Shown: positions 1 through 62,578 of the stretch, piece after piece
Layout of the letters: the number at the start of each line of letters is the position of its first letter
Numbering within the stretch: position 1 is the first letter of the stretch
Origin: Salipiger thiooxidans
GTDB lineage: Bacteria; Pseudomonadota; Alphaproteobacteria; Rhodobacterales; Rhodobacteraceae
DNA: 64,000 nucleotides
Direction: 5' to 3'
NCBI RefSeq assembly: GCF_900102075.1
Contig: NZ_FNAV01000008.1
Span: 62,001-126,000 of the forward strand
Translations under genes and position numbers: made by a program
The notes under the pieces: model-generated
Told to the model about the DNA's origin: nothing
Databases searched by the model: none
The model's input: only the letters and a program-made list of their open reading frames with translations

Positions 1-577
1 CCGAGAAGCCGAGCGCCCGGCAGGCCTGCGCGTATTCCCGGTCGCGCTGCGTCATGACCCCGGCGCGGGCGATGCGGGCGAAAGCCGGCGTCGCGGTGAA
101 CGCGATGGCGATGATGATGTTGCCCATCGTCGCCCCGATCAGCGCCACCAGCGCCAGCCCGAGGATCAGCGCCGGGAAGGCAAGGATCACGTCCATCACC
201 TGCATCAGCACGATATCGGTGCGCCCGCCGAGGAAGCCCGCGATCATGCCGAGGAAGGTGCCCACGATCATCGCCACCACGATGGCGAAGATGCCGATGG
301 TCAGCGAGTAGCGCGCGCCGTAGAGCAGCCGCGCCCAGATGTCCCGCCCGTACTGGTCGGTGCCCAGCAGGTGGCCGTCTCCCGGGGGCGAGAGCTGGTG
401 CAGGATGTTCTGCTTCGAGGGCGAATACTCGGTCAGCCACGGCGCGAAGATCGCCGCCAGCACCAGCGCCACCACGATCACGAGGCCGATCCAGGTCGAG
501 AGGTTGAGCCGCCGCAGCAGCCCCAGGCGCGCACGGCGCTTCGCGGGCGCGGCGGGCGGGTGTGCCATATCGGTCAT
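1..577 (-). CDS. Dipeptide/oligopeptide ABC transporter permease, DppC/OppC type (partial)
   Basis: Inner-membrane permease subunit of a peptide-type ABC importer. Only the first 192 residues are present because the gene runs off the left edge. It opens with a short basic cytosolic tail, then a membrane segment at about residues 30-48, the family hallmark GTDQYGRDIWARLL at 72-85, three more hydrophobic stretches, and the start of the cytoplasmic EAA loop (EYAQACRALG, 181-190) that contacts the ATPase. The ATG at 577 overlaps the stop codon of the neighbouring DppB-like gene by 4 bp (ATGA), so the two are translationally coupled. The binding protein and ATPases of the system are not in the window, and the substrate (peptide, opine, sugar or nickel) cannot be read from the permeases. 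Confidence 0.9.
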   Translation of the reverse strand, partial: MTDMAHPPAAPAKRRARLGLLRRLNLSTWIGLVIVVALVLAAIFAPWLTEYSPSKQNILHQLSPPGDGHLLGTDQYGRDIWARLLYGARYSLTIGIFAIVVAMIVGTFLGMIAGFLGGRTDIVLMQVMDVILAFPALILGLALVALIGATMGNIIIAIAFTATPAFARIARAGVMTQRDREYAQACRALGFS

Positions 578-1515
578 TTGTACTGGATCCTCGGGTCGAG
601 AAGGCCATAGGTCAGGTCGGTGGCAAGGTTCACCACCACGACCATCAGCGTGTAGACGACGATCATGCCCTGCAGCAGCGTGTAGTCCCGCTGGGTGAGC
701 GCGGTCAGGATCAGCTTGCCGAGCCCGGGGCGCGAGAACACGATCTCGGTCAGCACCGAGTTGCCGATCAGGATGCCGAGGTAGAGCCCCACCACCGTGG
801 TGATCGGGATCAGGCAATTGCCAAGCGCATGGGTCCAGACCACCCGCGACGGCGACACGCCCTTGGCCCTCGCGGTGCGCACGAAGTCCTGGCTCAGCAC
901 CTCGAGCATGGCCGAGCGGGTGACCCGGGTGATGTAGGCCATCATGATGAGCGCCAGCGCCAGCGTCGGCAGCGCCATCTGCCGCAGCCGCTCGGTCAGG
1001 GTCTCGGCATTGCCCGCCGAGATCACCGGGAACCAGCCGAAGTGGATGGCGAAAACCATCATCAGGATGATCGCCGCCACGAAGGCGGGCAGCGACAGCC
1101 CGATGAGCGACACCAGCCGCATCAGGTAGTCGGGGATGCGGTTGCGCCGCACCGCCGCCCAGACCCCCGCCGGCACCCCCAGCACGGTGCCGAGTACCAG
1201 CGCCGCGAAGGTCAACTCCAGCGTGTATGGCAGCACGTTGAGGATCTCCGACGTGACCGGCCGCCCGGTCACCATCGAATTGCCGAGGTCGCCCTGCAGG
1301 GCGCGGCCGAGAAAGCTCGCGTATTGCACGAGGATCGGATCGTTGAGCCCCAGCCGGTCGCGCAAGGCGGCCACGCTGTCGGGGCTGGCCTGATCCCCGA
1401 GGATCACCAGCGCCGGGTCGCCGGGCAGGATCCGCACGACCAGGAAGACCAGCGTCAGCACGCAGATGAGCGTGATGAGCGCGAACCCCAGTCGCTTCAG
1501 GATGAAAGTCAGCAT
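574..1515 (-). CDS. Dipeptide/oligopeptide ABC transporter permease, DppB/OppB type
   Basis: Full-length (313 aa) partner permease of the DppC-like protein. It begins with the typical first membrane helix (residues 8-28) followed by RILPGDPA, which is diagnostic of the DppB/OppB family, and the GDLGNSMVTGRPV region that precedes the permease core. About six membrane segments are visible. The EAA loop ARAKGVSPSRVVWTHALGN is the docking site for the ABC ATPase, and the C-terminus DLTYGLLDPRIQYK is also standard. It is the first gene of a leftward unit, separated by 211 bp from a divergent IclR regulator that probably controls it. Several ligands are possible for this permease class. Confidence 0.92.
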   Translation of the reverse strand: MLTFILKRLGFALITLICVLTLVFLVVRILPGDPALVILGDQASPDSVAALRDRLGLNDPILVQYASFLGRALQGDLGNSMVTGRPVTSEILNVLPYTLELTFAALVLGTVLGVPAGVWAAVRRNRIPDYLMRLVSLIGLSLPAFVAAIILMMVFAIHFGWFPVISAGNAETLTERLRQMALPTLALALIMMAYITRVTRSAMLEVLSQDFVRTARAKGVSPSRVVWTHALGNCLIPITTVVGLYLGILIGNSVLTEIVFSRPGLGKLILTALTQRDYTLLQGMIVVYTLMVVVVNLATDLTYGLLDPRIQYK

Positions 1516-1683
1516 GTCGTTCCCTGTCGTCGTCTCCGTCCCGGTTGTCCGGGCCGGACCGCATGCGTCCTCAGGCCCCCCTGCCCCTGTGCCGGGGCTT
1601 CGGGCGGCGACGCCGCGTCAGGGGTGATCGAACGCAATTGACTCACCCACGTCAACAAATTCTTATAAAGATAATTGGATGGG

Positions 1684-1706
1684 CCGATAAATTCCGGTTA
1701 TCGGAA
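1684..1706. promoter_or_regulatory. Overlapping dyads in the IclR/ABC divergent promoter
   Basis: Two perfect inverted repeats overlap here: CCGATAA-N7-TTATCGG (1684-1704) and TTCCG-N5-CGGAA (1692-1706). They lie 20-43 bp before the IclR start and about 170 bp before the divergent permease start, next to an A/T-rich stretch (about 1656-1680) that stands out in GC-rich DNA. The position suits an IclR autoregulatory operator; which dyad is bound is inference. Confidence 0.55.
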
Positions 1707-1726
1707 CTCATGGAGGGCATCTGGTC

Positions 1727-2488
1727 ATGAAAGACGCGCGGTCGTCTTCCAACGCCGAACGCGCGCTCGAGATTCTGCTGATCCTCGGCGATGCCACCGC
1801 CGAAGGTTTCAGCCTTGCGCAGATCTCCGAGCGGCTGGGCTGTGCCAAGTCGGTGGCCCACCGCAGCCTCAGCGCGTTGCGGGCCAAGGGCTTTGCCGAG
1901 ACCGCCGGGCGCTACGGCCACTACCGGCTCGGGCCCTCGATCCCGGCGCTCACCAAGCGCCAGGACCGGCTCGAGCCGCAGGCCCGCAAGCTGCGCCCCG
2001 GCATGACCGAGTTCGCCCGGCACAGCGGCCTCACCGTCTACCTGATCCTGCAGGCCGGGCTCGACGCGGTCTGCGGCGAGATGATCAGCCGCTCGAGCCG
2101 CCGGCATTTCACCATGGGCGTCGGCGCCCGCATCCCGATGGGCGTGCAGGCCGGCAGCGTGGCGCTGCTGTCGCTGCAGGACGACGAGGCGGTGAGCCGG
2201 GTGCTCGACGCCAACGCGCACCGCTTCCCGGTCTTCCCCGCCTGCCAGAAGGTCGACCGCGAGGTCGTGGCGGCGCAGGTCGCCGACGCCCGGCTCCGGG
2301 GCTTCGCGGTGAACATGGGCTACTACCTTCCGGGCGAAGGCGGGCTCGGCCTGCCGATCCCCGCCCAGGGCGCCTACGAGGCCGACGTCGCGGTCTCCTT
2401 CACTGCGCCGATCGAGCTCATGTCCGAGGAATGGATGGTCCGCACCATCGACGAACTGCGCGGCTTCCTCGCGGTCGGCGCCGGCTGA
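1727..2488 (+). CDS. IclR family transcriptional regulator
   Basis: 253-residue regulator with the two-part IclR plan. The N-terminal winged helix-turn-helix (about 10-70) contains FSLAQISERLGCAKSVAHRSLSAL as its DNA-reading unit, and the C-terminal effector domain (about 85-250) has the usual alternation of strands and helices. IclR proteins normally control a neighbouring catabolic or transport operon in response to a small acid, sugar or peptide-like ligand. Here the gene is divergent from the DppB/DppC permeases, and the shared intergenic region holds two dyads, so regulation of that transporter plus itself is the simplest reading. The ATG at 1727 follows GGAGGGCATCTGGTC, an acceptable Shine-Dalgarno arrangement. 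Confidence 0.88.
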   Translation: MKDARSSSNAERALEILLILGDATAEGFSLAQISERLGCAKSVAHRSLSALRAKGFAETAGRYGHYRLGPSIPALTKRQDRLEPQARKLRPGMTEFARHSGLTVYLILQAGLDAVCGEMISRSSRRHFTMGVGARIPMGVQAGSVALLSLQDDEAVSRVLDANAHRFPVFPACQKVDREVVAAQVADARLRGFAVNMGYYLPGEGGLGLPIPAQGAYEADVAVSFTAPIELMSEEWMVRTIDELRGFLAVGAG

Positions 2489-2644
2489 TCCGGGGTGCAT
2501 TCCAGGGTGTTTCGGTCCCTCCGGGGGGCGTGCGCCGGTTTCGATGTCGGGATGGCGGTGCGTGGGCCTCGGGGACCTGACGGAACGAAAATCATCTTTT
2601 TGTTCCGTCACTTCGGCAAATGCCTGTGCCCTGCCCTTTCCGAC

Positions 2645-2756
2645 CCTCTGGGCCTCTGGGCCTCTGGGCCTCTGGGCCTCTGGGCCTCTGGGCCTCTGGG
2701 CCTCTGGGCCTCTGGGCCTCTGGGCCTCTGGGCCTCTGGGCCTCTGGGCCTCTGGG
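2645..2756. repeat. 8-bp tandem repeat, 14 copies
   Basis: Fourteen uninterrupted, identical copies of CCTCTGGG. The period is not a multiple of three, so all frames stay open across it and give spurious repeat proteins. There are no spacers, so it is not CRISPR. It may be an expandable microsatellite or an iteron-like element of the replicon; nothing in the sequence shows which. Confidence 0.95.
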
Positions 2757-2922
2757 CTTTGAGGACCTTGCCGTGTGCCCCGGCGCAAGGCCCGGTCCGC
2801 GTCCTCGTTCTATATAGTCCAGGCGCAGGAAGGTCACGGGGAAGTTCCCCGCTGCACGGATTTTCCGCCGCTCGGCCACCCCACCGAACCCGGTTCGGCG
2901 TCCCGGCCCCTGCCCGACAGCC

Positions 2923-2992
2923 TGTCCCCTGTCCCCTGTCCCCTGTCCCCTGTCCCCTGTCCCCTGTCCCCTGTCCCCTGTCCCCTGTCCCC
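2923..2992. repeat. 7-bp tandem repeat of TGTCCCC, 10 copies
   Basis: Ten perfect head-to-tail copies of TGTCCCC. This heptamer is exactly the left arm of the palindrome TGTCCCCGCGGGGACA found seven more times in and around parA and parB. The last copy is also the left arm of the palindrome at 2986-3001. The array therefore looks like clustered half-sites for the same DNA-binding protein, plausibly ParB. That function is inferred from shared sequence and location only. Confidence 0.9.
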
Positions 2993-3001
2993 ACGGGGAC
3001 G
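2986..3001. repeat. Partition-region palindrome 1 (AC centre)
   Basis: TGTCCCC-AC-GGGGACG, capping the TGTCCCC tandem array. It departs from the consensus TGTCCCCGCGGGGACA at the central dinucleotide and the last base. Candidate parS-like site. Confidence 0.65.
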
Positions 3002-3089
3002 ATCCCGCCACCGAGCCGGCCCGGCAAGGAGCTCTGACCAGATGCCGGTCTTCGCCACCGGCGAGGGCAGCTCGCGCGGTACCTTTCGC

Positions 3090-3105
3090 TGTCCCCGCGG
3101 GGACA
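3090..3105. repeat. Partition-region palindrome 2
   Basis: Perfect 16-bp palindrome TGTCCCCGCGGGGACA, downstream of parB. Candidate parS-like centromere site. Confidence 0.7.
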
Positions 3106-3126
3106 CCTGCGGCGATCCTCTCCCCC

Positions 3127-3142
3127 TGTCCCCATGGGGACA
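3127..3142. repeat. Partition-region palindrome 3 (AT centre)
   Basis: Perfect palindrome TGTCCCC-AT-GGGGACA. Both heptamer arms match the consensus and only the central dinucleotide differs, which suggests the arms are the conserved part. It lies 22 bp after palindrome 2. Confidence 0.7.
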
Positions 3143-3485
3143 CGGCCATCGGCCTGCCTCGCGCATTGCCCCGCAGGGTCTCCCGTCAATGTGCCGGAGG
3201 CCGCCCTGCCCCCGTCCACGACCCGCCATCGCCCGTCCCGTCCCCGTGGGTCTCAGCCGTCCTTGCCCGGCCATCCCGACGGCTCAGGGACCGTTGCCGT
3301 CCTCTCAGCCCACGACCGCAGGTCGGCTCTGCTCCGCCACCCTGCCCGTTCGCCTCACCGCACCGCCCGTGATCCGGCATCCCCGATCAATGATCCTCGC
3401 CCCTTGATCCGGGGCCCTCATGAAGCATCACCGCTCGCTCCAGCTCTCGCCTCACCTGACGCCGCGCCGTCCAGTCCTCATCGCC

Positions 3486-3501
3486 TGTCCCCGCGGGGAC
3501 A
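3486..3501. repeat. Partition-region palindrome 4
   Basis: Perfect TGTCCCCGCGGGGACA, 178 bp beyond the stop codon of parB (3679). Candidate parS-like site. Confidence 0.7.
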
Positions 3502-3678
3502 CTTCGTGGCTCTCTCGCGTACTCCCGAAAATCCACATCCCGAGACGGGCCCGGAACCCGCGCGCCATGGCGCAACGCCGCCACGCAATCGCCGAATACA
3601 CCCAACCCCCAAAGACACGAAAAGGCGGCGCGCGGGGTGTCCGCGGCGCCGCCCTGGCATCGTGTCGGAAGAAGGCGC

Positions 3679-4779
3679 TCAGTCGTCGAGCGCTGCCATG
3701 AAGGCCGCCACCGCGGCCTCGAGCCGGTGCCGGTCGATGCTCGAGAAATCGCGCTCCATCTGCAGCTCGACCTTGCCGTCGCGCGCGGCGCAACGGACTG
3801 TCCCCGCGGGGACAGTGCAGCGCAGCGTGGTCTTGGCAGCCGCGTTCTTGCCGCTGGGGCTGCGCGGCGCCGGCGCCGATTGCGTGGTCTTCAGCGCGTC
3901 CTGCAGAACCGCCACCTCGTAATCCGCCGAGCGCTCGCCCTGTTCGGAAAGCGCCTTGCGCAGCCGCGCCTCGAAGCCGCGCTCCGCGCTCATGCGCTTG
4001 GCGACGTCGAGCCCCAAGTTGCGCGAGATCGCCTCGGGGTGTTGCAGCACGTCGCCCAGCGTTTCCACCAGACCGGCAAAATGGCGGATGTAGCTGCGCT
4101 TCTGCCGGCCGGCGGAGGCGAAAAGCACGTCCACCGCCGAGGCCACATCCGCAGACGCCGTGCCCGGGTCCTCGGCGTAGCGCATGGCGAGCACCGCCAT
4201 TTCGGCAAACGAGATGTCGCGGCGCACGAGGTTCTCGTCGACCATCCGCCGGTACAGCCCCTCGAGCGCCTCGCCGGTCGCGACCAGGCCCGCCGGGATC
4301 CGGGCGAAGGCCTCGTCGCCGGTTTCCGCGAAAAGCTCGCGGTAGGCGCGCAGACGACGGAAGCCCTGGACCAGTTCGTAGCCGTCACCGACGGGCTCGA
4401 CCTGGATCGGGTTGGACAGCCCGATGGCGCGGATCGAGGCCTTCAGTTCAGCAATATCCGGGTCGGCGCCGGTGCCGCGGTCGCGGGTCAGCTTCTCGGT
4501 CCGGATCGCGTCGATGGCAATCAGGTCGGTGATCAGCCCGGCGCGCTTCAGCCGGACGTGCTCATGTGCGAGCCGGTCGTTCTCTTCCCGGATCGCGCGC
4601 TCGGCCTCGGCGCGCTCGCGCAGCGCGTCGGCGTTTTCCGAGATCGCCGCGGCCATGGGACCGCGCCGCGCCTCGGGTTTGGACGCGGGCGCGGGCGCCG
4701 AGGTCCGGCGTCCGCCGCCGGTGTAGACCCCGTCCTGCGTGCTGGGAAAGTCGATGTCGAAACCACGTCTCTTGCTCAT
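3679..4779 (-). CDS. parB: ParB-like partition protein (centromere-binding)
   Basis: 366-residue plasmid partition protein. After a basic, disordered N-terminus (1-45) and a charged, probably coiled-coil stretch (about 46-78), a ParB/Spo0J N-terminal domain runs from about 85 to 190. It is shown by IDAIRTEKLTRDR, the GLSNPIQVEPV strand pair and LVQGFRRLRAYREL, equivalent to the GERR-type nucleotide-binding loop of the family. A helical region that would carry the HTH follows, then a C-terminal tail. It starts inside the 3' end of parA (4-bp overlap), so the two form one operon. A 16-bp palindrome (3799-3814) lies inside the coding sequence and is read in frame as part of VPAGT. ParB proteins bind parS sites and, with ParA, move replicon copies apart. 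Confidence 0.92.
   Translation of the reverse strand: MSKRRGFDIDFPSTQDGVYTGGGRRTSAPAPASKPEARRGPMAAAISENADALRERAEAERAIREENDRLAHEHVRLKRAGLITDLIAIDAIRTEKLTRDRGTGADPDIAELKASIRAIGLSNPIQVEPVGDGYELVQGFRRLRAYRELFAETGDEAFARIPAGLVATGEALEGLYRRMVDENLVRRDISFAEMAVLAMRYAEDPGTASADVASAVDVLFASAGRQKRSYIRHFAGLVETLGDVLQHPEAISRNLGLDVAKRMSAERGFEARLRKALSEQGERSADYEVAVLQDALKTTQSAPAPRSPSGKNAAAKTTLRCTVPAGTVRCAARDGKVELQMERDFSSIDRHRLEAAVAAFMAALDD
3799..3814. repeat. Partition-region palindrome 5, inside parB
   Basis: TGTCCCCGCGGGGACA inside the parB 3' coding region. With its flanks it extends to the 20-bp palindrome ACTGTCCCCGCGGGGACAGT. The frame reads it as VPAGT, so the site has been tolerated as amino acids. Confidence 0.75.
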
Positions 4780-6080
4780 GCCTCATCCTCCAGCTTGTCC
4801 CACGCGGTCAGCGCGTGATCGCGGAATTCCTCGTAGGCCCGGTCGAAGCTGGCGCGGGCGCGGCGCCAGGTCTCGCGGGTCATCTCGCGATAGTCGATCT
4901 CGTAGATCGAGCTCAGGAACCGCCCGGATTGTTCGACGGCCCGGGTCATCTCGATCGGGTGCTGGGTCACTCTGTCTTCCCAGACCTTTTCAAAGGCCGA
5001 ACGCATCGCGCGGTGCAATTCGTTGCCGGGCTCGTAGCGGGTGAGCAGGAAGCGCACGTCCTGGAACACCTTGGGCAGTTGCAGTGTCCCCGCGGGGACA
5101 ACCCCCTCGAACCCCGAGAGATCGGCGAGCGCCTCGGAGAGCTGGCCGATGAACGAGGTGGTGGAATCGTATTCCCAGTAGCCCGGGCCGGAGGGGACGT
5201 AGAGCATGTCGGCGGCGAAGACCGCGTTCATGCTCTGGTAGCCGATGGCGGGCGGGCAGTCGAAGATCACCATGTCGTAGGCGTCGCGGGGCAGGGCGTC
5301 GAGGTAGCGCGACACGGCGGCGAAGAACGACCACTCGGGGTTCAGGTGGCGGTACTGGGCGCTGGCGAACTCGACGAAGGCCGCGTTGGCGCAGGAGGGG
5401 ATGATGTCGATGGTGGGCCAGGACGTCGGTTTGATGAAGTCGGCGACGCGCAGGTCGCGCAGGCCCATGTCGGTGATCGCCTCGGGCAGGCGGCGCTGGG
5501 GCAGGGCGGAGCCGCTCTCGGCGCCGCGCATGGCCGCGTTCATCCGGTCGGTCTCGCGGATCAGGTCGCGAGCCATGATGCCCCAGACCGTATATTCCTC
5601 GGTGATGTCCGAGAGCCCCATCGAGTGGCTGAGCGTCGCCTGCGGGTCGAAGTCGACGCAGAGCACCCGGTAGCCATCGAGCGCCGCGGCATGGGCGAAG
5701 TGCAGCGCCACGGTCGACTTGCCGGCGCCGCCCTTGAAGTTCGAGATCGCGACGCGGATCGCCCGCTTGCCCGCCGGCCGCCGCGGCATCAGGCTCTTGC
5801 GGTTGACCTTGAGCTTGCGGCGGATCTCGTTGATCTCCTCGAGCGCATACCAGCGCTGGCGGCCGTCTTCCTCGACCAGCCCCTGCGGCAGCGAGGGGTC
5901 GGCGGCCATGCGGCCCCGAAGCGTAGACTGGTTGACCCGGAGGATGAGCTCGGCCACCTCCCAGCTCGAGAACCGCCTGAGCCGCTTCTCGAGCTCCGGC
6001 GAAAAGGTCTGCTGCCGGATCCAGCCCTGCATCTTCAGGGACTGCGCCTGCATCCGCGCAAGGTCTTCGTGAGTGAACAT
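4776..6080 (-). CDS. parA: ParA-like partition ATPase
   Basis: 434-residue plasmid ParA. An N-terminal winged-helix-like region (about 1-100, including a MerR-like stretch near QRWYALEEINEIRR) is followed by a deviant Walker A motif KGGAGKS at 116-122, the A-prime motif VDFDPQATLS and the Walker B-like segment VIFDCPP. The long N-terminus is typical of plasmid ParA proteins that also repress their own operon. I chose the ATG at 6080 because AGGAGG sits 6 bp upstream. A longer frame back to 6185 would only translate two noncoding palindromes (6119, 6162). Another palindrome (5085-5100) lies within the gene at about residue 327. The gene is divergent from the initiator and overlaps parB. Confidence 0.93.
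   Translation of the reverse strand: MFTHEDLARMQAQSLKMQGWIRQQTFSPELEKRLRRFSSWEVAELILRVNQSTLRGRMAADPSLPQGLVEEDGRQRWYALEEINEIRRKLKVNRKSLMPRRPAGKRAIRVAISNFKGGAGKSTVALHFAHAAALDGYRVLCVDFDPQATLSHSMGLSDITEEYTVWGIMARDLIRETDRMNAAMRGAESGSALPQRRLPEAITDMGLRDLRVADFIKPTSWPTIDIIPSCANAAFVEFASAQYRHLNPEWSFFAAVSRYLDALPRDAYDMVIFDCPPAIGYQSMNAVFAADMLYVPSGPGYWEYDSTTSFIGQLSEALADLSGFEGVVPAGTLQLPKVFQDVRFLLTRYEPGNELHRAMRSAFEKVWEDRVTQHPIEMTRAVEQSGRFLSSIYEIDYREMTRETWRRARASFDRAYEEFRDHALTAWDKLEDEA
5085..5100. repeat. Partition-region palindrome 6, inside parA
   Basis: Perfect TGTCCCCGCGGGGACA inside parA, again read in frame as VPAGT (about residues 327-332), distal to the Walker motifs. Confidence 0.75.
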
Positions 6081-6118
6081 GGTGCCTCCTGCTCTGCCCG
6101 TCGTGCCGTCCCGGTGCC

Positions 6119-6134
6119 TGTCCCCGCGGGGACG
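6119..6134. repeat. Partition-region palindrome 7, parA leader
   Basis: TGTCCCCGCGGGGACG, one mismatch at the outer end, 39 bp upstream of the parA start codon. Together with palindrome 8 it could be the operator through which ParA or ParB represses the operon. Confidence 0.65.
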
Positions 6135-6161
6135 CTGGCTTGCGATGCCTGTCGTGGCGTT

Positions 6162-6177
6162 TGTCCCCGCGGGGACA
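6162..6177. repeat. Partition-region palindrome 8, parA leader
   Basis: Perfect TGTCCCCGCGGGGACA, 43 bp (about four helical turns) from palindrome 7, in the divergent region between parA and the initiator gene. Confidence 0.7.
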
Positions 6178-6663
6178 CCGGCCATCTTTGGAACATCGGG
6201 ACGCTAATTTTCTCTGCTCCACCATTTACGTTGATTTGCCAGAAATGCCAAAGCCTATTATGATGAAAGCATCGGATGTGGCGAAATCGCCAATTCCCGG
6301 TGAAACCAACGGAAACCCCGCGGGGGCAGGGCAACGACACCCCCTCGTGATTCGGCAAGGCTCTGGAGACTCTGGCCGAATACTGAGGGACACTCCGGGC
6401 GCTCCACCCAGATATTGGGGGACATTTTCACCGAATAAGGGGACAGCCAATATGTCCCCCAATACCTAGATACCCATTTTTTCATTCGAAAAAGGATTGG
6501 GATCAGGACGTAAATCCCTGACGCCTTGACAGAATCGGTTTTCCGGACGCAAATAGATCGAGATCACCAAAGAACGCTGAGTTGACGGCGCAAGGGATCT
6601 TCACGGGCCACCAAGAGCCCGGGATCGAGGCAGGCCCGCAGGGGCGAGACACGAGGGCAGCAT
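6178..6663. other. Putative replication origin region
   Basis: Gene-free 486 bp between the divergent parA and initiator genes, with A/T-rich blocks (6210-6290, 6470-6490) rare in this window. It contains a perfect 13-bp inverted repeat (TATTGGGGGACAT at 6413, ATGTCCCCCAATA at 6452) and GGGGACA-N7-TGTCCCC (6439-6459), which re-uses the partition half-site in everted order. There is also a bare CCCCGCGGGG core at 6316 and a possible -35 TTGACA at 6526 serving the initiator. The layout fits an oriV next to its initiator, but no DnaA-box series was recognised. Confidence 0.5.
6413..6464. repeat. 13-bp inverted repeat with internal everted half-sites
   Basis: TATTGGGGGACAT (6413-6425) and its exact complement ATGTCCCCCAATA (6452-6464), separated by 26 bp. 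Within the spacer and right arm lies GGGGACA-N7-TGTCCCC (6439-6459). It is a candidate binding site for the initiator or for ParB next to the replication gene. Confidence 0.75.
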
Positions 6664-7356
6664 ATGCTTGCCAGAAATCCGGCCGCGCGCAACGCCCCGG
6701 CCATGAAATACGACCTTCTCACGGTCATGGGAGCCTTTGCCCTGGCGCAGGACAAGGGCCGGCAGCGGCTCGTTCTGCGACTGATGACCCTGGTGACCGC
6801 CCGCTACAACTGGGGGCGCGACGAGCTGGCGGTGGGCCAGCGCGAGATCGCCCGGCTGTGGCTGGTGGACGAACGGACGGTCAAGCGCGAGATGGCGAAG
6901 CTTCGGGCGATGGGGTGGCTCACGGTGCGGAGGCAGGGCGCTCGGGGCCGCGTCACCGAGTACTCGCTGGCGATCGAACGCATCCTTGAGGACAGCCGCC
7001 CCCGCTGGGGCGACGTGGGGCCCGATCTCGAGCACCGGCTCAGCGCCACCCCCGAGGAGGCGCCGAAGGTGGTGCCGCTGCCGGTCAAGGGCAGGGTCGC
7101 GGCCCCCGAGGTCTCGGACGGCACCGAGTGGTCGCTGGCACGCGCGCTGCTGCACGCCGAGGACCCGGCGCTTTACGGGTCGTGGATCGCGGCGCTCGAG
7201 CGCCGCAGCAGGGCAGGGGGGCGGCTGACGCTGCAGGCGCCCTCGCGCTTCCACGCGAGCTACGTCGCCACCCATCTCGTGTCGCGGCTGCTCTCGGCCT
7301 GCCGCTCGGTGGACGGCAGCGTCGACGAGATCGTGGTGGGCAGCGCCGCGGGCTAG
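6664..7356 (+). CDS. DnaA-like plasmid replication initiator
   Basis: 230-residue initiator resembling the DnaA-like replicases of Rhodobacterales plasmids. The middle part contains a helix-turn-helix (VGQREIARLWLVDERTV, about 60-76, with the reading helix continuing to LRAMGWLTV). The C-terminal 80 residues (about 150-230) resemble the N-terminal domain of DnaA, with LYGSWIAALERR and the strand-helix APSRFHASYVATHL. There is no AAA+ ATPase domain, so it cannot act as a full DnaA. It probably binds the adjacent origin and recruits host replication proteins. It is divergent from parAB and its stop codon overlaps the end of the convergent cbiO by 4 bp. The start at 6664 is preceded by GAGGGC; an internal ATG at codon 14 is possible. 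Confidence 0.8.
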   Translation: MLARNPAARNAPAMKYDLLTVMGAFALAQDKGRQRLVLRLMTLVTARYNWGRDELAVGQREIARLWLVDERTVKREMAKLRAMGWLTVRRQGARGRVTEYSLAIERILEDSRPRWGDVGPDLEHRLSATPEEAPKVVPLPVKGRVAAPEVSDGTEWSLARALLHAEDPALYGSWIAALERRSRAGGRLTLQAPSRFHASYVATHLVSRLLSACRSVDGSVDEIVVGSAAG

Positions 7357-8003
7357 GACGGCACCAGTCTGCCGTCGCGCAGGTCGAGCGCGTCGGGGGC
7401 CAGGGCCGCGCGGAAGGCGGCGGAGTGGCTCACAAGCAGGATCGCCTGCGGCAGGGCGCGCAGGATCTCGAGCAGGCGCCCTTCGTTCTTCGGGTCGAGC
7501 GCATTGGTCGGCTCGTCGAGCAGCAGCGCCTCGGGTTCCATGGCGAGCACGGTGGCCAGCGTTACCAGCCGCTTCTCGCCGCCCGAGAGCTTGTGGGTGA
7601 TGCGGTCGCGCAGGTGGGCGAGGTCGAGATCGCCCAGCACCCGGTCGACGATGGCCAGCGCCTCGTCACGGCTGCGCCCGAGGTTGAGCGGACCGAAGGC
7701 AACGTCCTCGGCCACGGTGGGGCAGAAGAGCTGATCGTCGGGGTCCTGGAACACCAGCCCGATGCGGCGGCGGACCTCGTGAAAGTCGGCCTCCTGGCGG
7801 CGGGGCGTGCCAAAGGCGGTGACGGTGCCCGCGTCGGGGCGTTGCAGCCCCAGCGCGATGCGCAGCAGGGTCGACTTGCCGGCGCCGTTGGGACCGGTCA
7901 GCGACAGCCGCTGGCCGGGCATGAGCCGCAGCGAGACGCCGTCGAGCACCGGGGCGTGGCCGGGGTAGGCGAAGCGGATGTCGGAGAGCGCGATCAGGGC
8001 CAT
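7353..8003 (-). CDS. cbiO: Cobalt/nickel ECF transporter ATPase CbiO
   Basis: 216-residue ABC ATPase of an energy-coupling-factor importer. Walker A is GPNGAGKST (about 37-45), the Q-loop is VFQDPDDQLFCPTV (the DPDDQ signature is typical of ECF ATPases), the ABC signature is LSGGEKRL, Walker B is LLLDEPTNALD and the switch histidine is in LVSHS. It ends an operon transcribed leftwards behind a cobalamin riboswitch and overlaps cbiQ by 10 bp, so it should energise CbiM/CbiQ. A single ATPase gene implies a homodimer. It ends convergently with the replication initiator, with overlapping stop codons. Confidence 0.93.
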   Translation of the reverse strand: MALIALSDIRFAYPGHAPVLDGVSLRLMPGQRLSLTGPNGAGKSTLLRIALGLQRPDAGTVTAFGTPRRQEADFHEVRRRIGLVFQDPDDQLFCPTVAEDVAFGPLNLGRSRDEALAIVDRVLGDLDLAHLRDRITHKLSGGEKRLVTLATVLAMEPEALLLDEPTNALDPKNEGRLLEILRALPQAILLVSHSAAFRAALAPDALDLRDGRLVPS

Positions 8004-8782
8004 GCGAGATCGACGCCGAGGAGCGCGGTACAGAGGCCGCAGAAGACCACCGCGACGCGCCGGTCGCGGGCGGTGAGGGCAAAGTCGCCGAGCAGCGGAA
8101 AGCGCCCCGAGAAGCCGCGGCAGCGCATCGCCGAGAGGATGCGTTCGGAGCGTTCGATGGCCCGCACCAGCATCATGCCGACGAGGTAGCCGAAGCTGCG
8201 GTAGGTGTGCCAGTTGGTGCCCGGGCGGAAGCCCCGGACCTTCATCGCGGCGCGCAGGCGCAGGTACTCGTGCCGGAGCACCTCGATGTAGCGGATGGTG
8301 AACATCAGCAGGTGCACCAGCCGTTCCGGGCAGTGCAGCCGGTGCAGGGCGTGGCCCAGCGTCACCGGCTCGAGGGTGCCCACCAGCACCATCAGCGCGA
8401 GGATGACGGCGTTGGCGGTGAGCGCGATCTCTGTGGCCTGCCGGAGCCCCTGCCAGCTGGCGGTGAGGCCCCAGAGGCTGAAGATCGCGTCGCCGGGCAC
8501 GGTGAAGGGCAGCATCACCAGCATGAAGAGGATGAACCCGTCCATCATCGCCATGCGCCTGAGCGTGGGCCCCGGCGGCAGCTTCGACAGCGCCATGAGC
8601 CCCACCGCCATGGCCAGCGCCGCGGCCATGGCGGGCAGGGTGGTGAGCGCCACGGTGACGATGCCGAAGACCCCGGCCATGACGATGCGCAGCCGGGGGT
8701 CGAGCTGGCCCACGGTCCCGTACTCGGGCGCGGCGCCGGCCTCGGCCAGGGTCTTTTCGCTGGGCCTCAGCGCGTGGGCCAC
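7994..8782 (-). CDS. cbiQ: Cobalt/nickel ECF transporter transmembrane subunit CbiQ
   Basis: 262-residue T-component of the ECF importer. Hydrophobic helices occupy about 30-75, 85-110 and 120-145, with another at the C-terminus. The cytoplasmic coupling helices carry the two Arg-Gly motifs of the family, AMKVRGF and AMRCRGF, which contact the CbiO dimer. It sits between the CbiL-like gene and cbiO, overlapping the latter. The order from the riboswitch is DUF4198, cbiM, cbiL-like, cbiQ, cbiO. The long N-terminal cytosolic stretch (1-28) is unremarkable. Confidence 0.92.
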   Translation of the reverse strand: MAHALRPSEKTLAEAGAAPEYGTVGQLDPRLRIVMAGVFGIVTVALTTLPAMAAALAMAVGLMALSKLPPGPTLRRMAMMDGFILFMLVMLPFTVPGDAIFSLWGLTASWQGLRQATEIALTANAVILALMVLVGTLEPVTLGHALHRLHCPERLVHLLMFTIRYIEVLRHEYLRLRAAMKVRGFRPGTNWHTYRSFGYLVGMMLVRAIERSERILSAMRCRGFSGRFPLLGDFALTARDRRVAVVFCGLCTALLGVDLAWP

Positions 8783-8785
8783 GGC

Positions 8786-9358
8786 TCAGCCCGCGAGCTT
8801 GCGGCGCGCCGCGAGGTAGAAGCCGAGCCCGAAGAGGCCGACGATGTAGCCGATGCCGCCGAGGATGCTTTGCAGGTCGTTGTGTTCGCGGTAGGCGGCG
8901 ATCTCGCGGCGCAGGGGCCGGACCTCGTCGCGCACCGCCTCGGCGATGGCCTGTTTCTCGGCCGCACCGAGGGCGCCGCCGGCGGGGGAGGGGGCCTCGC
9001 CCGGCGCTGCGGGCGCAGGCGCGGCGGCCGGGGCGGCGCCGAGGATCCGCGCCACGTCCTCGGCGGGCATGGTGACCTCGGCCACGTGGCCGGCGCCGAG
9101 GTTGGCGTGGAAGCTGTGGGCCACCGGCGCCGTGGGGACATAGGTGAAGAACCCGTCGGCGTCGGTGCGGGTGCGGCCCAGCTCGGTGCCGTCGGGGCCG
9201 GTGACGACGACTTCGGTGTCTGCGGCCATGTCCCCGTTCGAGAACCCGAGCTCGCCCTCGATGGCCTCGCCCGAGGGGAAGACCCCGGCGATGACCTTGT
9301 GGGCGGCGGCGGGCAGGGGGGCGCAGGCCAGCGCCGCGATCAGGAGGAGGCGTCTCAT
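8786..9358 (-). CDS. CbiL/NikL-like periplasmic accessory protein of the ECF transporter
   Basis: 190-residue secreted protein anchored by one C-terminal helix. A signal peptide (MRRLLLIAALACAPLPAAA) leads straight into mature HKVIAG, so a histidine sits at or near the processed N-terminus, as in metal-binding accessory proteins. A beta-rich domain follows (about 25-105, GPDGTELGRTRTDADGFFTY), then an Ala/Pro-rich linker, a charged helix, and a membrane segment (about 165-185) ending in RRKLAG. The ATG at 9358 overlaps the stop codon of cbiM (ATGA); a longer frame upstream to 9625 would overlap cbiM and is rejected. This arrangement is known for NikK-M-L-Q-O type systems. Confidence 0.78.
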   Translation of the reverse strand: MRRLLLIAALACAPLPAAAHKVIAGVFPSGEAIEGELGFSNGDMAADTEVVVTGPDGTELGRTRTDADGFFTYVPTAPVAHSFHANLGAGHVAEVTMPAEDVARILGAAPAAAPAPAAPGEAPSPAGGALGAAEKQAIAEAVRDEVRPLRREIAAYREHNDLQSILGGIGYIVGLFGLGFYLAARRKLAG

Positions 9359-9966
9359 GCGGCGATCCCCCGGACGAAGAGCTCGGGCTTCACCTTGCGC
9401 GCCAGCAGCACCGCGAAGCCGGTGAGCACCGCCTCGATCGCCATGACGGGGATGTGGGCGAAGAACACCAGCTTCGCGGCGGGCAGGAAGCCCTCGCCCG
9501 AGAGCGCCAGGGCTGCGGCCACCATGGCGGTGGTGCCGGCGATGGCGAAGGCGCCGCCGAGGCCGCCCCAGACCGCGCCCTGCACCGGCGTGCCGCGGCC
9601 GATCAGCCGGCCGAAGAGCAGCCACGCCAGCACCGCGGGCAGCGCGATGTTGAGCGTGTTGACCCCCAGCACCGTGAGCCCGCCGAAGCCGAAGAACACC
9701 GCCTGCAGCAGCAGCCCGACGAAGAGCGCCGGGAAGGCGGCCCAGCCGAGCAGAAGCCCGGCCAGACCGTTGAGGATGAGGTGCACCGACGACGGCCCGA
9801 TGGGCACGTGGATCAGCGATGCGACGAAGAAGCTGGCCGACAGCACCCCGGCGGTGGGGATGCGGTCGAGGTCGAGGGTTTTCAGCCCGAGGGCGATGCC
9901 CCCGGCGGCGGCGACGGCGCCGCCGATCACCACCGGGTTGGAAAGCGCGCCGTCAACGATGTGCAT
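9355..9966 (-). CDS. cbiM: Cobalt/nickel ECF substrate-binding membrane subunit CbiM
   Basis: 203-residue S-component. The mature N-terminus MHIVDGALS is the metal-binding signature: in CbiM/NikM the free amino group and His2 coordinate Co or Ni. Further family features are HVPIGPSSVHLILNGLAGLLLG and six or so hydrophobic segments. The start ATG must be exactly at 9966 for the motif to be N-terminal. Family members carry cobalt or nickel. Here the cobalamin riboswitch upstream favours cobalt for B12 synthesis, although the DUF4198 and CbiL-like partners are best known from nickel systems. Confidence 0.93.
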   Translation of the reverse strand: MHIVDGALSNPVVIGGAVAAAGGIALGLKTLDLDRIPTAGVLSASFFVASLIHVPIGPSSVHLILNGLAGLLLGWAAFPALFVGLLLQAVFFGFGGLTVLGVNTLNIALPAVLAWLLFGRLIGRGTPVQGAVWGGLGGAFAIAGTTAMVAAALALSGEGFLPAAKLVFFAHIPVMAIEAVLTGFAVLLARKVKPELFVRGIAA

Positions 9967-9982
9967 GGGCCCGTGCTCCTGT

Positions 9983-10768
9983 CTATTCCAGGTCCCAGGC
10001 GCGGATCCAGATCACCGCGTCCTGGCTGAGCTCCTTGCCCTCGTGCTCGGTCACCGGGCCCGAGCCGAGCGCGGCGAAGCCCCAGTGCCCGGCCCGGGGC
10101 ACGCCGAAGGTGAAGGTGCCGTCGGGGCCGGTCACCGCGACCACCGAGCCGCCGGGCGGCGGGGTGACCACGGGCTGGGTCGCGGCGCCGCTCGTCATGT
10201 CGGGTTCGGCGGCCATGTACTCGATCTCGATCTCGACGCCCGCGGCGGGGGCGCCGTCGCGCAGCACCTGCCCGCTGAAGGTCGAGCCTGCGATGACGTT
10301 GTAGGGCTTGTTGAGCGGCACGATCTCGGTCGGCAGCCCCACCGGTTCGGCCCAGTCGGTGGGCAGCTGGTTGCGGTTCAGGAAGGCCTTGGTGATCTGC
10401 TGGATATAGAGATCCTCGGAGGCCTCAAAGTAGGGCTGCGGCACCGTCACCAGCACGTAGTCGCCCGAGCGCCGCACCGGCACCGCGCCGACGAGGGCCG
10501 CGCCCTCGTTCTCGCCGCCCGTGAAGGTGACCGGCTCGAGCGTGCCCAGCAGGTCGGTGCGCTCGCCGTTGTGGAGCACGAAGAACTCCTGCGGCATCTC
10601 GAGATCCATGACATGGCCGTTTTCGAACGGATGCCAGAAGATCAGCTTGACCGGCACCTCGCCGGGCGCCTCGATCATGGTGTCTTCGGTGTATTCCAGC
10701 AGGAAGTGGGCCGAGGCGGTGGCGGGAATCGCCAGCGCGGTCGCGGCCGCGAGAAGGATGGTCTTCAC
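9983..10768 (-). CDS. DUF4198 (NikK-like) periplasmic protein
   Basis: 261-residue exported protein, first gene of the ECF operon. A signal peptide (AAATALAIPATASA) gives a mature N-terminus beginning HFLLEYTEDTMI. Histidine as the first mature residue is characteristic of NikK/DUF4198 proteins thought to bind the metal outside the membrane. The rest is beta-rich with an Ig-like C-terminal part (GPDGTFTFGVPRAGHWGFAA). I chose the GTG at 10768, preceded by AAGGA. The longer frame to 10993 would translate the riboswitch and is rejected. The role is probably to capture cobalt or nickel and pass it to CbiM; there is no direct evidence of which ion. Confidence 0.82.
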   Translation of the reverse strand: MKTILLAAATALAIPATASAHFLLEYTEDTMIEAPGEVPVKLIFWHPFENGHVMDLEMPQEFFVLHNGERTDLLGTLEPVTFTGGENEGAALVGAVPVRRSGDYVLVTVPQPYFEASEDLYIQQITKAFLNRNQLPTDWAEPVGLPTEIVPLNKPYNVIAGSTFSGQVLRDGAPAAGVEIEIEYMAAEPDMTSGAATQPVVTPPPGGSVVAVTGPDGTFTFGVPRAGHWGFAALGSGPVTEHEGKELSQDAVIWIRAWDLE

Positions 10769-35181: not shown

Positions 35182-35213
35182 TCCTGCGCCCCGCGCAATC
35201 GCGGGGATCAGGA
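35182..35213. terminator. GC hairpin between convergent genes
   Basis: CCCCGCG-CAAT-CGCGGGG extended outward by TCCTG / CAGGA, between the b561 stub and the end of the GntR gene. There is no T-run, so a weak or factor-assisted terminator is the most that can be said. Confidence 0.4.
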
Positions 35214-35909
35214 CACCGAGACGAAATAATCGTGCTGGTCGGTGAGGCTCTGGCTGCTGCGCAGCTCGACCACCCGGTCCAGCACGTCGATGGCCCGGCG
35301 CCGCACCTCGAGCACCGGCGTCCCCGCGGGGACGCCGAGGGCCTTGGCGCTGGCCTCTGACACCGCGTGGGCGCTCAGCCGTTCGTCGGCGCGCACGATG
35401 ATCACCGAATAAGCCTGCTGGTAGAAGACGTAGAGCGTGTTGGGCAGCGGCACCCGGTCGGCGAGCCCTGGGAACAGCGCCGCCGACACCACCGAGACCT
35501 CGTGCGTCACCGGCCGCTGCGCGAGGCTGCGCACGCGCTCGATCTCGATCACCGACTCGGGCCGCCCGAAGAGCTCGGCGCGTTCCTCGGGGGTGGCGGC
35601 GCGGCGGCGCACGGTTTCCCACTCGAGCCGCGGGCTTTCCAGCGTGCCGTCGGGGTTGCGCAGGCGGAAGAAATTGAACAGCGAGGTCTCGGGCGTGCGC
35701 ACCGTCACGAAGGTGCCGCGCCCCTGCACCCGTTGCACCAGACCGCGCGCCTCGAGCTCCATCAGCGCCTTGCGCGCCGTGCCCTGGCTGACGCCGAGCT
35801 CGGCGCCGAGCTGGGTTTCGCTGGGGAGCATCGCACCTGAGGGCAGGCTGCCCGAGGCGATGCGGTCGACGATGGTGTTCATCACGACCTGGTAGAGCGG
35901 TGGCGCCAT
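35208..35909 (-). CDS. GntR family regulator (HutC subfamily)
   Basis: 233-residue regulator with an N-terminal winged HTH (about 5-70: LYQVVMNTIVDRIASG, ETQLGAELGVSQGTARKAL, RGTFV end) and a C-terminal UTRA ligand domain (about 90-230, with LGVPAGTPVLEVRR as the typical UTRA core). It is divergent from the sulfo-lyase operon with 140 bp between them, so it probably controls sulfolactate use in response to sulfolactate or a breakdown product. The core palindrome CGTCCCCGCGGGGACG at 35319 falls in the conserved UTRA codons and is probably coincidental. Confidence 0.88.
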   Translation of the reverse strand: MAPPLYQVVMNTIVDRIASGSLPSGAMLPSETQLGAELGVSQGTARKALMELEARGLVQRVQGRGTFVTVRTPETSLFNFFRLRNPDGTLESPRLEWETVRRRAATPEERAELFGRPESVIEIERVRSLAQRPVTHEVSVVSAALFPGLADRVPLPNTLYVFYQQAYSVIIVRADERLSAHAVSEASAKALGVPAGTPVLEVRRRAIDVLDRVVELRSSQSLTDQHDYFVSVS

Positions 35910-61914: not shown

Positions 61915-62578
61915 GACGCCGCCGACGTGGCCCATCTGCCCCGCAGCCGCGCCGGCGGAGGGGCTCGTGAGCGCGTTGTCGTGGTGGCGGCCACCGAAAG
62001 CAGCCACGCCCGAATGTGCGTCGGTTGAGGGCGCCCGTCCGCCCCGGCCCGGGAAGAGCGTGGCTTGTTTTGACGCGTCACCCGCTCTGTCTTCGCGGAT
62101 GAGGCGAAGAAATCCCGCGGAGAGCGGAGGTTTGGCGGAACCGGAACCGCTCTTGCGGGGTTCTTCCAACGGTCGGCCCCGCCGGTCCCGTTCTGTTTCT
62201 CTCTCTGCCATGACGACCTCGTCGCCTTGCCGACCCGCAGGCCTCCGCTCTCCGACACCCAGACCCCGAGACATGCCCGGCACGCATCGCGACCCAGCCC
62301 CTCATCGTGCCCCGACGTCCTGCCCGCCCGAAAGGGTGCGCGGGTGAGCCGCGTGCGCGGGGCGCCCGCGCCGCGCCCAAGAGGGCGCTGGACAGGACTC
62401 CAGCCAGGCCGCAGGCTGGCGGCGGCACTGTCCGGCTCAGGGCCGGCTCGGGACCGGCACGGGCCGGGCGCAGGGACCAAACCTGGGCCGAACCAACGGT
62501 CCCCGCACGCCCGGCCTCCCGCCGGGCGCCCGACGCAGACGCCTTCTCCCTCCGTTCCCTCATCGCTGGAAAGCTGAC
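61915..62578. other. Gene-free stretch before glgX
   Basis: 664 bp in which I find no supported gene, RNA or repeat. Frames on both strands are Arg/Pro-rich GC translations. A few GC-rich inverted stretches (for example CCGGCACGGGCCGG near 62453) are unremarkable. A promoter for glgX presumably lies within it but cannot be located with confidence. Confidence 0.5.

Follow-up and report, generated by a model that had tools for sequence, protein, structure and literature searches.

Putative parS palindromes dispersed through the par operon of a DnaA-like I replicon of Salipiger thiooxidans, and a private array of their left arm

The DNA analysed, hereafter the window, is a 64,000-nucleotide stretch of Salipiger thiooxidans (assembly GCF_900102075.1, genome 5.87 Mb) covering positions 62,001–126,000 of the forward strand of contig NZ_FNAV01000008.1. 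It contains parB, parA and a gene for a DnaA-like replicase (rep), eight copies or near-copies of a 16-bp palindrome around parA and parB, and a head-to-tail array of the left arm of that palindrome, TGTCCCC (Table 1). On sequence grounds, the window holds the core that would replicate and partition a DnaA-like I plasmid or chromid. The replicase bears a DnaA N-terminal domain, and the window ParB is 59% identical to that of NC_018291.1 (L004), which is matched to a DnaA-like I plasmid as its counterpart in an excerpt of PMC4148982; in an excerpt of PMC3910702, the plasmid pAqui_F126 of Leisingera aquimarina is typed DnaA-like I. As expected of a ParABS system, the gene for the Walker ATPase ParA adjoins that of a ParB with a predicted CTPase-type N domain, and comparison among relatives revealed conserved palindromic sites that track ParB. 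An Rfam search of window positions 1–10000 gave no match reaching the gathering score.

Table 1. Features of the replication and partition region (window coordinates; TRF, Tandem Repeats Finder)
Feature	Position	Strand	Details
Perfect 8-bp array, CCTCTGGG x 14.1, unrelated to TGTCCCC	2645..2757		same intergenic region as the TGTCCCC array; TRF
Perfect head-to-tail array, ten TGTCCCC units	2923..2992	+	TRF 2921-2992, 10.3 copies, 100% matches
parS-like site TGTCCCCACGGGGACG, 3' of parB	2986..3001		2 mismatches
parS-like site	3090..3105		exact; pattern match
parS-like site TGTCCCCATGGGGACA	3127..3142		2 mismatches; itself a perfect palindrome, centre shifted
parS-like site, intergenic, 3' of parB	3486..3501		exact; pattern match
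parB	3679..4779	-	366 aa
parS-like site inside parB	3799..3814		exact; reads VPAGT; between two predicted strands, C-terminal part
parA	4776..6080	-	434 aa, Walker ATPase; PF13614; TIGR03453 scored under its cut-off
parS-like site inside parA	5085..5100		exact; reads VPAGT
parS-like site upstream of parA	6119..6134		1 mismatch
parS-like site upstream of parA	6162..6177		exact; pattern match
Iteron-like cluster upstream of rep	6386..6459		GGGGACA 6418, 6439; inverted TGTCCCC 6453; decayed copy 6386; spacings 32, 21, 14
rep, DnaA-like replicase	6664..7356	+	230 aa; winged helix plus DnaA domain I

All eight palindromes listed in a first-pass annotation of this DNA were recovered, five of them exact, one with a single mismatch and two with two mismatches. 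The window held nine matches to the 16-mer at up to three mismatches, compared with a mean of 1.11 and a maximum of 4 in 100 shuffles. In the S. thiooxidans genome, the exact 16-mer occurred five times, always within the par locus, and its 14-bp core seven times, six of them there and the seventh at window position 35319, so that no Noc-like distribution of sites across the chromosome was seen. The first-pass annotation had held that an equal frequency of the palindrome elsewhere would argue against a partition role; such a frequency was not found in this genome, but some relatives carry tens of copies outside the par locus (see below). The ninth window match, a lone CGTCCCCGCGGGGACG at 35319–35334, lies 29 kb off the par locus inside the UTRA part of a GntR/UTRA regulator gene (35208–35906, minus strand). 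A second partition locus in the same genome (L094, contig C68) contains GTTTCGCGCGCGAAAC three times, with two of the copies lying towards the 3' end of a gene resembling parB; this site word differs from the window palindrome, and both are present in one cell.

We compared 85 par loci, comprising 80 from genome contigs (80 of 386 relatives were kept), four plasmids and the window. The core TCCCCNNGGGGA was present in the fetched stretch of all 85, at 1–19 copies per locus, and recurred in the same places, namely within parA and on its 5' side, towards either end of parB, and beyond the 3' end of parB. Five of these relatives (L001, L002, L007, L009 and L010) repeat whole palindromes in tandem with periods of ~24–30, 55, 123 or 166 bp. 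Several dispersed sites, which the first-pass annotation took to be unusual, are therefore usual in the DnaA-like I family. The palindrome core was found in each of the other 84 loci compared, the half-site array in none of them.

The core of the site inside parA was intact in 78/85 loci. In a codon-conservation scan of 84 of the 85 loci (one was dropped for an internal stop), the codons for VPAGT formed the top five-codon window of parA, with a mean commonest-codon share of 0.898 against 0.595 for the median window; the runner-up, a separate window encoding VWGIM, reached 0.883. The glycine codon of the site was GGG in 83/85 loci, compared with 26% GGG in the gene as a whole, and the threonine codon was ACA in 67 of 77, compared with 12%. 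These codon frequencies indicate that DNA rather than peptide is conserved at this site. A literature search with the letters of the palindrome returned no match, and the site is not printed in the excerpts of the DnaA-like plasmid literature consulted (PMC9025767, PMC5613091, PMC9040568, PMC3910702, PMC9426580, PMC4572655, PMC9044938, PMC3832669, PMC6052148 and PMC4148982). A search for parS within coding sequence returned only one paper, which was unrelated.

In eight of the 85 loci the parA site read TTCCCC..GGGGAA instead of GTCCCC..GGGGAC, both arms being altered jointly, and the encoded peptide was FPAGK or FPTGK. ParB differed along with the site: Arg225 (R225), which the structural prediction places at the start of the recognition helix, was present in 77/77 of the other rows and in 0/8 of the TTCCCC rows. 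A further 50 ParB loci, 30 of them from genomes chosen for bearing the palindrome and several from the same strains as, or close kin of, the first 85, gave the same picture, with GTCCCC sites nearby in 44/44 loci with R225 and in 0/6 without it. Of these six, two (G010 and G027) had TTCCCC, and two (G031 and G002; L223 and L227) had one copy each of a third-type word, CTTACCCGCGGGTAAG, together with Y225 and T226 in ParB; none of the three words occurred in the loci examined from the remaining two (G410 and G039). At the level of genomes, a ParB of this class was found in 46 of the 48 palindrome-bearing genomes searched (27/27 and 19/21), and a ParB match was found in 10 of 31 genomes without the 16-mer. 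Five of these ten were examined (G006, G023, G032, G034 and G035 were left out), and all five were without R225. The genome G034, which is without the 16-mer, has a further ParB match on a large contig (G034:C1:3419980-3420852, E 3e-89).

Several observations weigh against taking the palindromes as sites of this ParB. Lys261 and two further ParB columns also split the two groups, and the GTCCCC/TTCCCC switch maps to a single change on the tree, so that there are few independent events and residue and site are possibly linked by descent alone. At E 1e-60, no class I ParB match was found in G402, which has five core copies, and only a class II-type ParB was found in G400, which has four. Within parB, the C-terminal site showed no special codon conservation in the scan described above, and the N-terminal sites shift position among loci within a tail predicted at low confidence. 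Nevertheless, because of the occurrence in 85/85 loci, the codon constraint in parA, the joint change of both arms and the tracking by R225, the palindromes are very probably parS sites, and the proposal of the first-pass annotation that they act in partition is strongly backed by the comparison.

We also counted the palindrome across whole genomes of relatives. Within the genus, the core was present in 17/20 genomes, six of which have 33–57 copies, par locus included. Beyond these, G063 contained 89 copies of the core and 79 of the 16-mer, and G247 contained 62 of the 16-mer. The reversed control pattern was absent from 19/20 genus genomes, occurred once in G396, and gave 0 in the 16-mer count. 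At least 34 of the 52 core copies of G404 lie on contigs other than that of the plasmid. The G063 ParB (L151:6289-7434; 49% identical over the matched part) is encoded beside bchI, bchD and bchO; neither a class I ParA nor a class I Rep was found up to 13 kb away, the rest of the genome not being searched. An excerpt of PMC6052148 describes photosynthesis clusters that carry DnaA-like I modules at a constant position. The G247 ParB (L152:3748-4986; 47% identical) has a RepABC set adjacent, and neither parA nor rep of class I was found up to 11 kb away, the rest of the genome again not being searched. Both genomes thus combine genome-wide sites with a ParB without adjoining class I parA or rep, as a Noc-like system would.

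Individual copies were then examined. One in G063 lies within the RAMA domain of a methylase gene (L106). A coding site, L114, in a gene that we take to be MarR-like, was compared across 14 genus genomes; five have the palindrome, and nine, including G409 and S. thiooxidans itself, have other bases at the same codons. No insertion or deletion was seen across the 14 genomes in the stretch compared. An intergenic site, L107, was found in one of eight genomes (G409 only). These two sites suggest that palindromes can arise in place, without insertion of a mobile palindrome. At least nine of the 15 G404 sites examined have an intact counterpart at the orthologous position of G409, with flanks 71–95% identical; this is a lower bound, as 15 of the 52 G404 loci were set against 20 G409 regions plus L107 (25 of 53 G409 places listed). 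One of the 15 (L245) was not shared, and the pair L247/L243 carries little weight among the nine since its flanks are 95% identical. Calculated solely from the flanks of the nine pairs that are shared, the expected intact fraction was 0.045. Four of the nine (L252, L255, L258 and L260) resemble terminator stems and may be conserved as hairpins.

A second ParB was considered as the cause of the scattered copies in the genus and rejected, since its seven class II-type loci have their own parA and rep and it is also found in genomes with 0–6 copies. When repeated palindromes only were output, a repeated perfect palindrome TAACCC..GGGTTA was found in two of these seven loci; L157 (G401) and L161 (G404) each contain two copies of TAACCC(GC or AT)GGGTTA, G404 having class I as well. 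It is conceivable, although the odds are somewhat against it, that class I plasmid ParBs have on more than one occasion been co-opted for a chromosome-wide role (in G063, in G247 and in the six congeners, whose plasmid par locus is intact), with sites that would be Noc-like or nucleoid-organising; the window locus would then have stayed unspread, and its array would be a chance by-product.

The arm of the palindrome is also found at the origin. The region upstream of rep has the regularly spaced repeats expected of iterons, the window having three exact copies of the 7-mer and one decayed copy. The interval between rep and parA was usable in 79/85 loci (six were left out, and five were without an anchor in the alignment of decayed copies). 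All 79 contain at least one exact 7-mer, and 73 at least two. A four-copy pattern, with one copy inverted and three direct and with offsets of 0, 14, 35 and 67, was complete in 22 of the 79 loci, whereas 30 have three of its copies, 20 have two and seven have one; decayed copies occupy many of the remaining positions. The density of half-sites was 5.63 per kb in this interval, compared with 0.146 elsewhere in the loci. All eight TTCCCC loci retain at least one exact copy there, which suggests a keeper other than ParB, most simply Rep. A shared iteron and parS word as a general rule was rejected, because the DnaA-like II cluster is similar but its iteron and parS words differ. Among classes I and II, the use of one word for both is, as far as these sequences go, peculiar to class I.

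The perfect 7-bp, ten-copy array of the first-pass annotation was borne out, and the palindrome at 2986 takes its left arm from the last unit. The proposed role of the array as part of the centromere was not supported. Counting any run of at least three tandem TGTCCCC units, one mismatch allowed, we found the array in one of 394 family genomes and one of 20 genus genomes, in both cases that of S. thiooxidans itself, and in none of the other 84 par loci. It adjoins an unrelated perfect array, the 14 copies of CCTCTGGG ~165 bases away, and its unit is the core of the iteron-like cluster as much as an arm of parS. Because the array is perfect, private and beside another perfect array, it probably arose by recent slippage as a private expansion. 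Against this, a private array may yet have a function.

The best-surviving alternative, still an unlikely one, is that the array functions as a platform of half-sites, on which many weak ParB contacts raise the local concentration of ParB and reinforce the partition complex. The unit is identical to a parS arm and abuts a parS, three units make 21 bp or about two helical turns, and the array occupies the region 3' of parB in which several relatives cluster whole sites. However, none of the other genomes and loci examined has the array, and in the five relatives with tandem repeats in this region the repeated unit is the whole palindrome and not its arm. ParB dimers are expected to require inverted arms, but all ten units have the same orientation.

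Since the 7-mer is the core of the iteron-like cluster, Rep is a rival binder of the array. In that case the array could serve as an additional set of iteron-like repeats, titrating the initiator and adjusting copy number or incompatibility. This appears more doubtful still, as the natural copies of the 7-mer are mostly flanked by AT-rich sequence (e.g. ATATTGGGGGACA), the array is without such flanks, and it adjoins a parS rather than the origin cluster. That the palindromes serve another factor or form hairpins, with ParB uninvolved, is very improbable: the terminator-like stems among the compared chromosomal copies and the core copies of G400 and G402 point that way, but ParB accompanies the palindrome in nearly all genomes bearing it, a ParB residue follows the site word, the palindromes offer no space for a loop, and conservation of the parA copy extends to its letters.

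Taken together, we favour, with a probability of about 0.72, the combined reading that the window holds a DnaA-like I core, that its palindromes are parS, and that the array is a recent expansion of a parS left arm that is dispensable for partition. If ParB acts as in CTP-dependent systems, its dimers would load at each palindrome and spread across the 3.2 kb region, and ParA would move the complexes apart when the cell divides. Upstream of parA, the sites would probably serve autoregulation too. Those inside parA and parB may have been placed where the proteins tolerate VPAGT, and in parA selection on DNA would retain the site. The array would be a slipped-strand expansion of one parS left arm that may still attract some ParB or Rep.

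The family offers a natural experiment on the co-evolution of a centromere with its binding protein, in which a site within coding sequence switches both arms jointly and a ParB residue follows. The 7-bp word common to replication and partition in class I suggests possible cross-talk between the two. If a plasmid ParB binds the scattered chromosomal copies, this would represent a second, plasmid-derived origin of a Noc-like system, or a tie between plasmid and chromosome. The points that appear to be new are the DNA-level constraint in parA, the site-tracking ParB residue, the use of one word for iterons and parS in class I and, in relatives, the spread of sites over the chromosome.

The closest known systems are the DnaA-like I plasmids of the Rhodobacterales, with which the window shares gene order, DnaA_N replicase, ParA and ParB; the half-site array is the window's alone. 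The 2011 abstract of Petersen and colleagues on the DnaA-like plasmids of this order reportedly mentions class-specific parS sites. DnaA-like II replicons (L092 is so typed in an excerpt of PMC9025767; L095 served for gene order only) resemble the window in gene order and in having a similar iteron-like cluster, but their parS is GTAACCC..GGGTTAC (3/3 loci) and their iteron word GGTGACA-like. For repABC plasmids, an excerpt of PMC9040568 reports several parS near the rep/par genes, some of them in open reading frames, and hypothesises selection even within coding sequence; those plasmids use another ParB family and the site GTTNNNNGCNNNNAAC, whereas the window has such sites within parA and parB themselves. 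Noc of the Firmicutes is a ParB relative whose site is two positions off parS, according to an excerpt of PMC7383237. Noc is chromosomal and has genome-wide sites, whereas the window ParB belongs to a plasmid par locus with local sites. One of the positions that distinguish the Noc site from parS is presumably the second base of the window 16-mer, the very base that switches between GTCCCC and TTCCCC.

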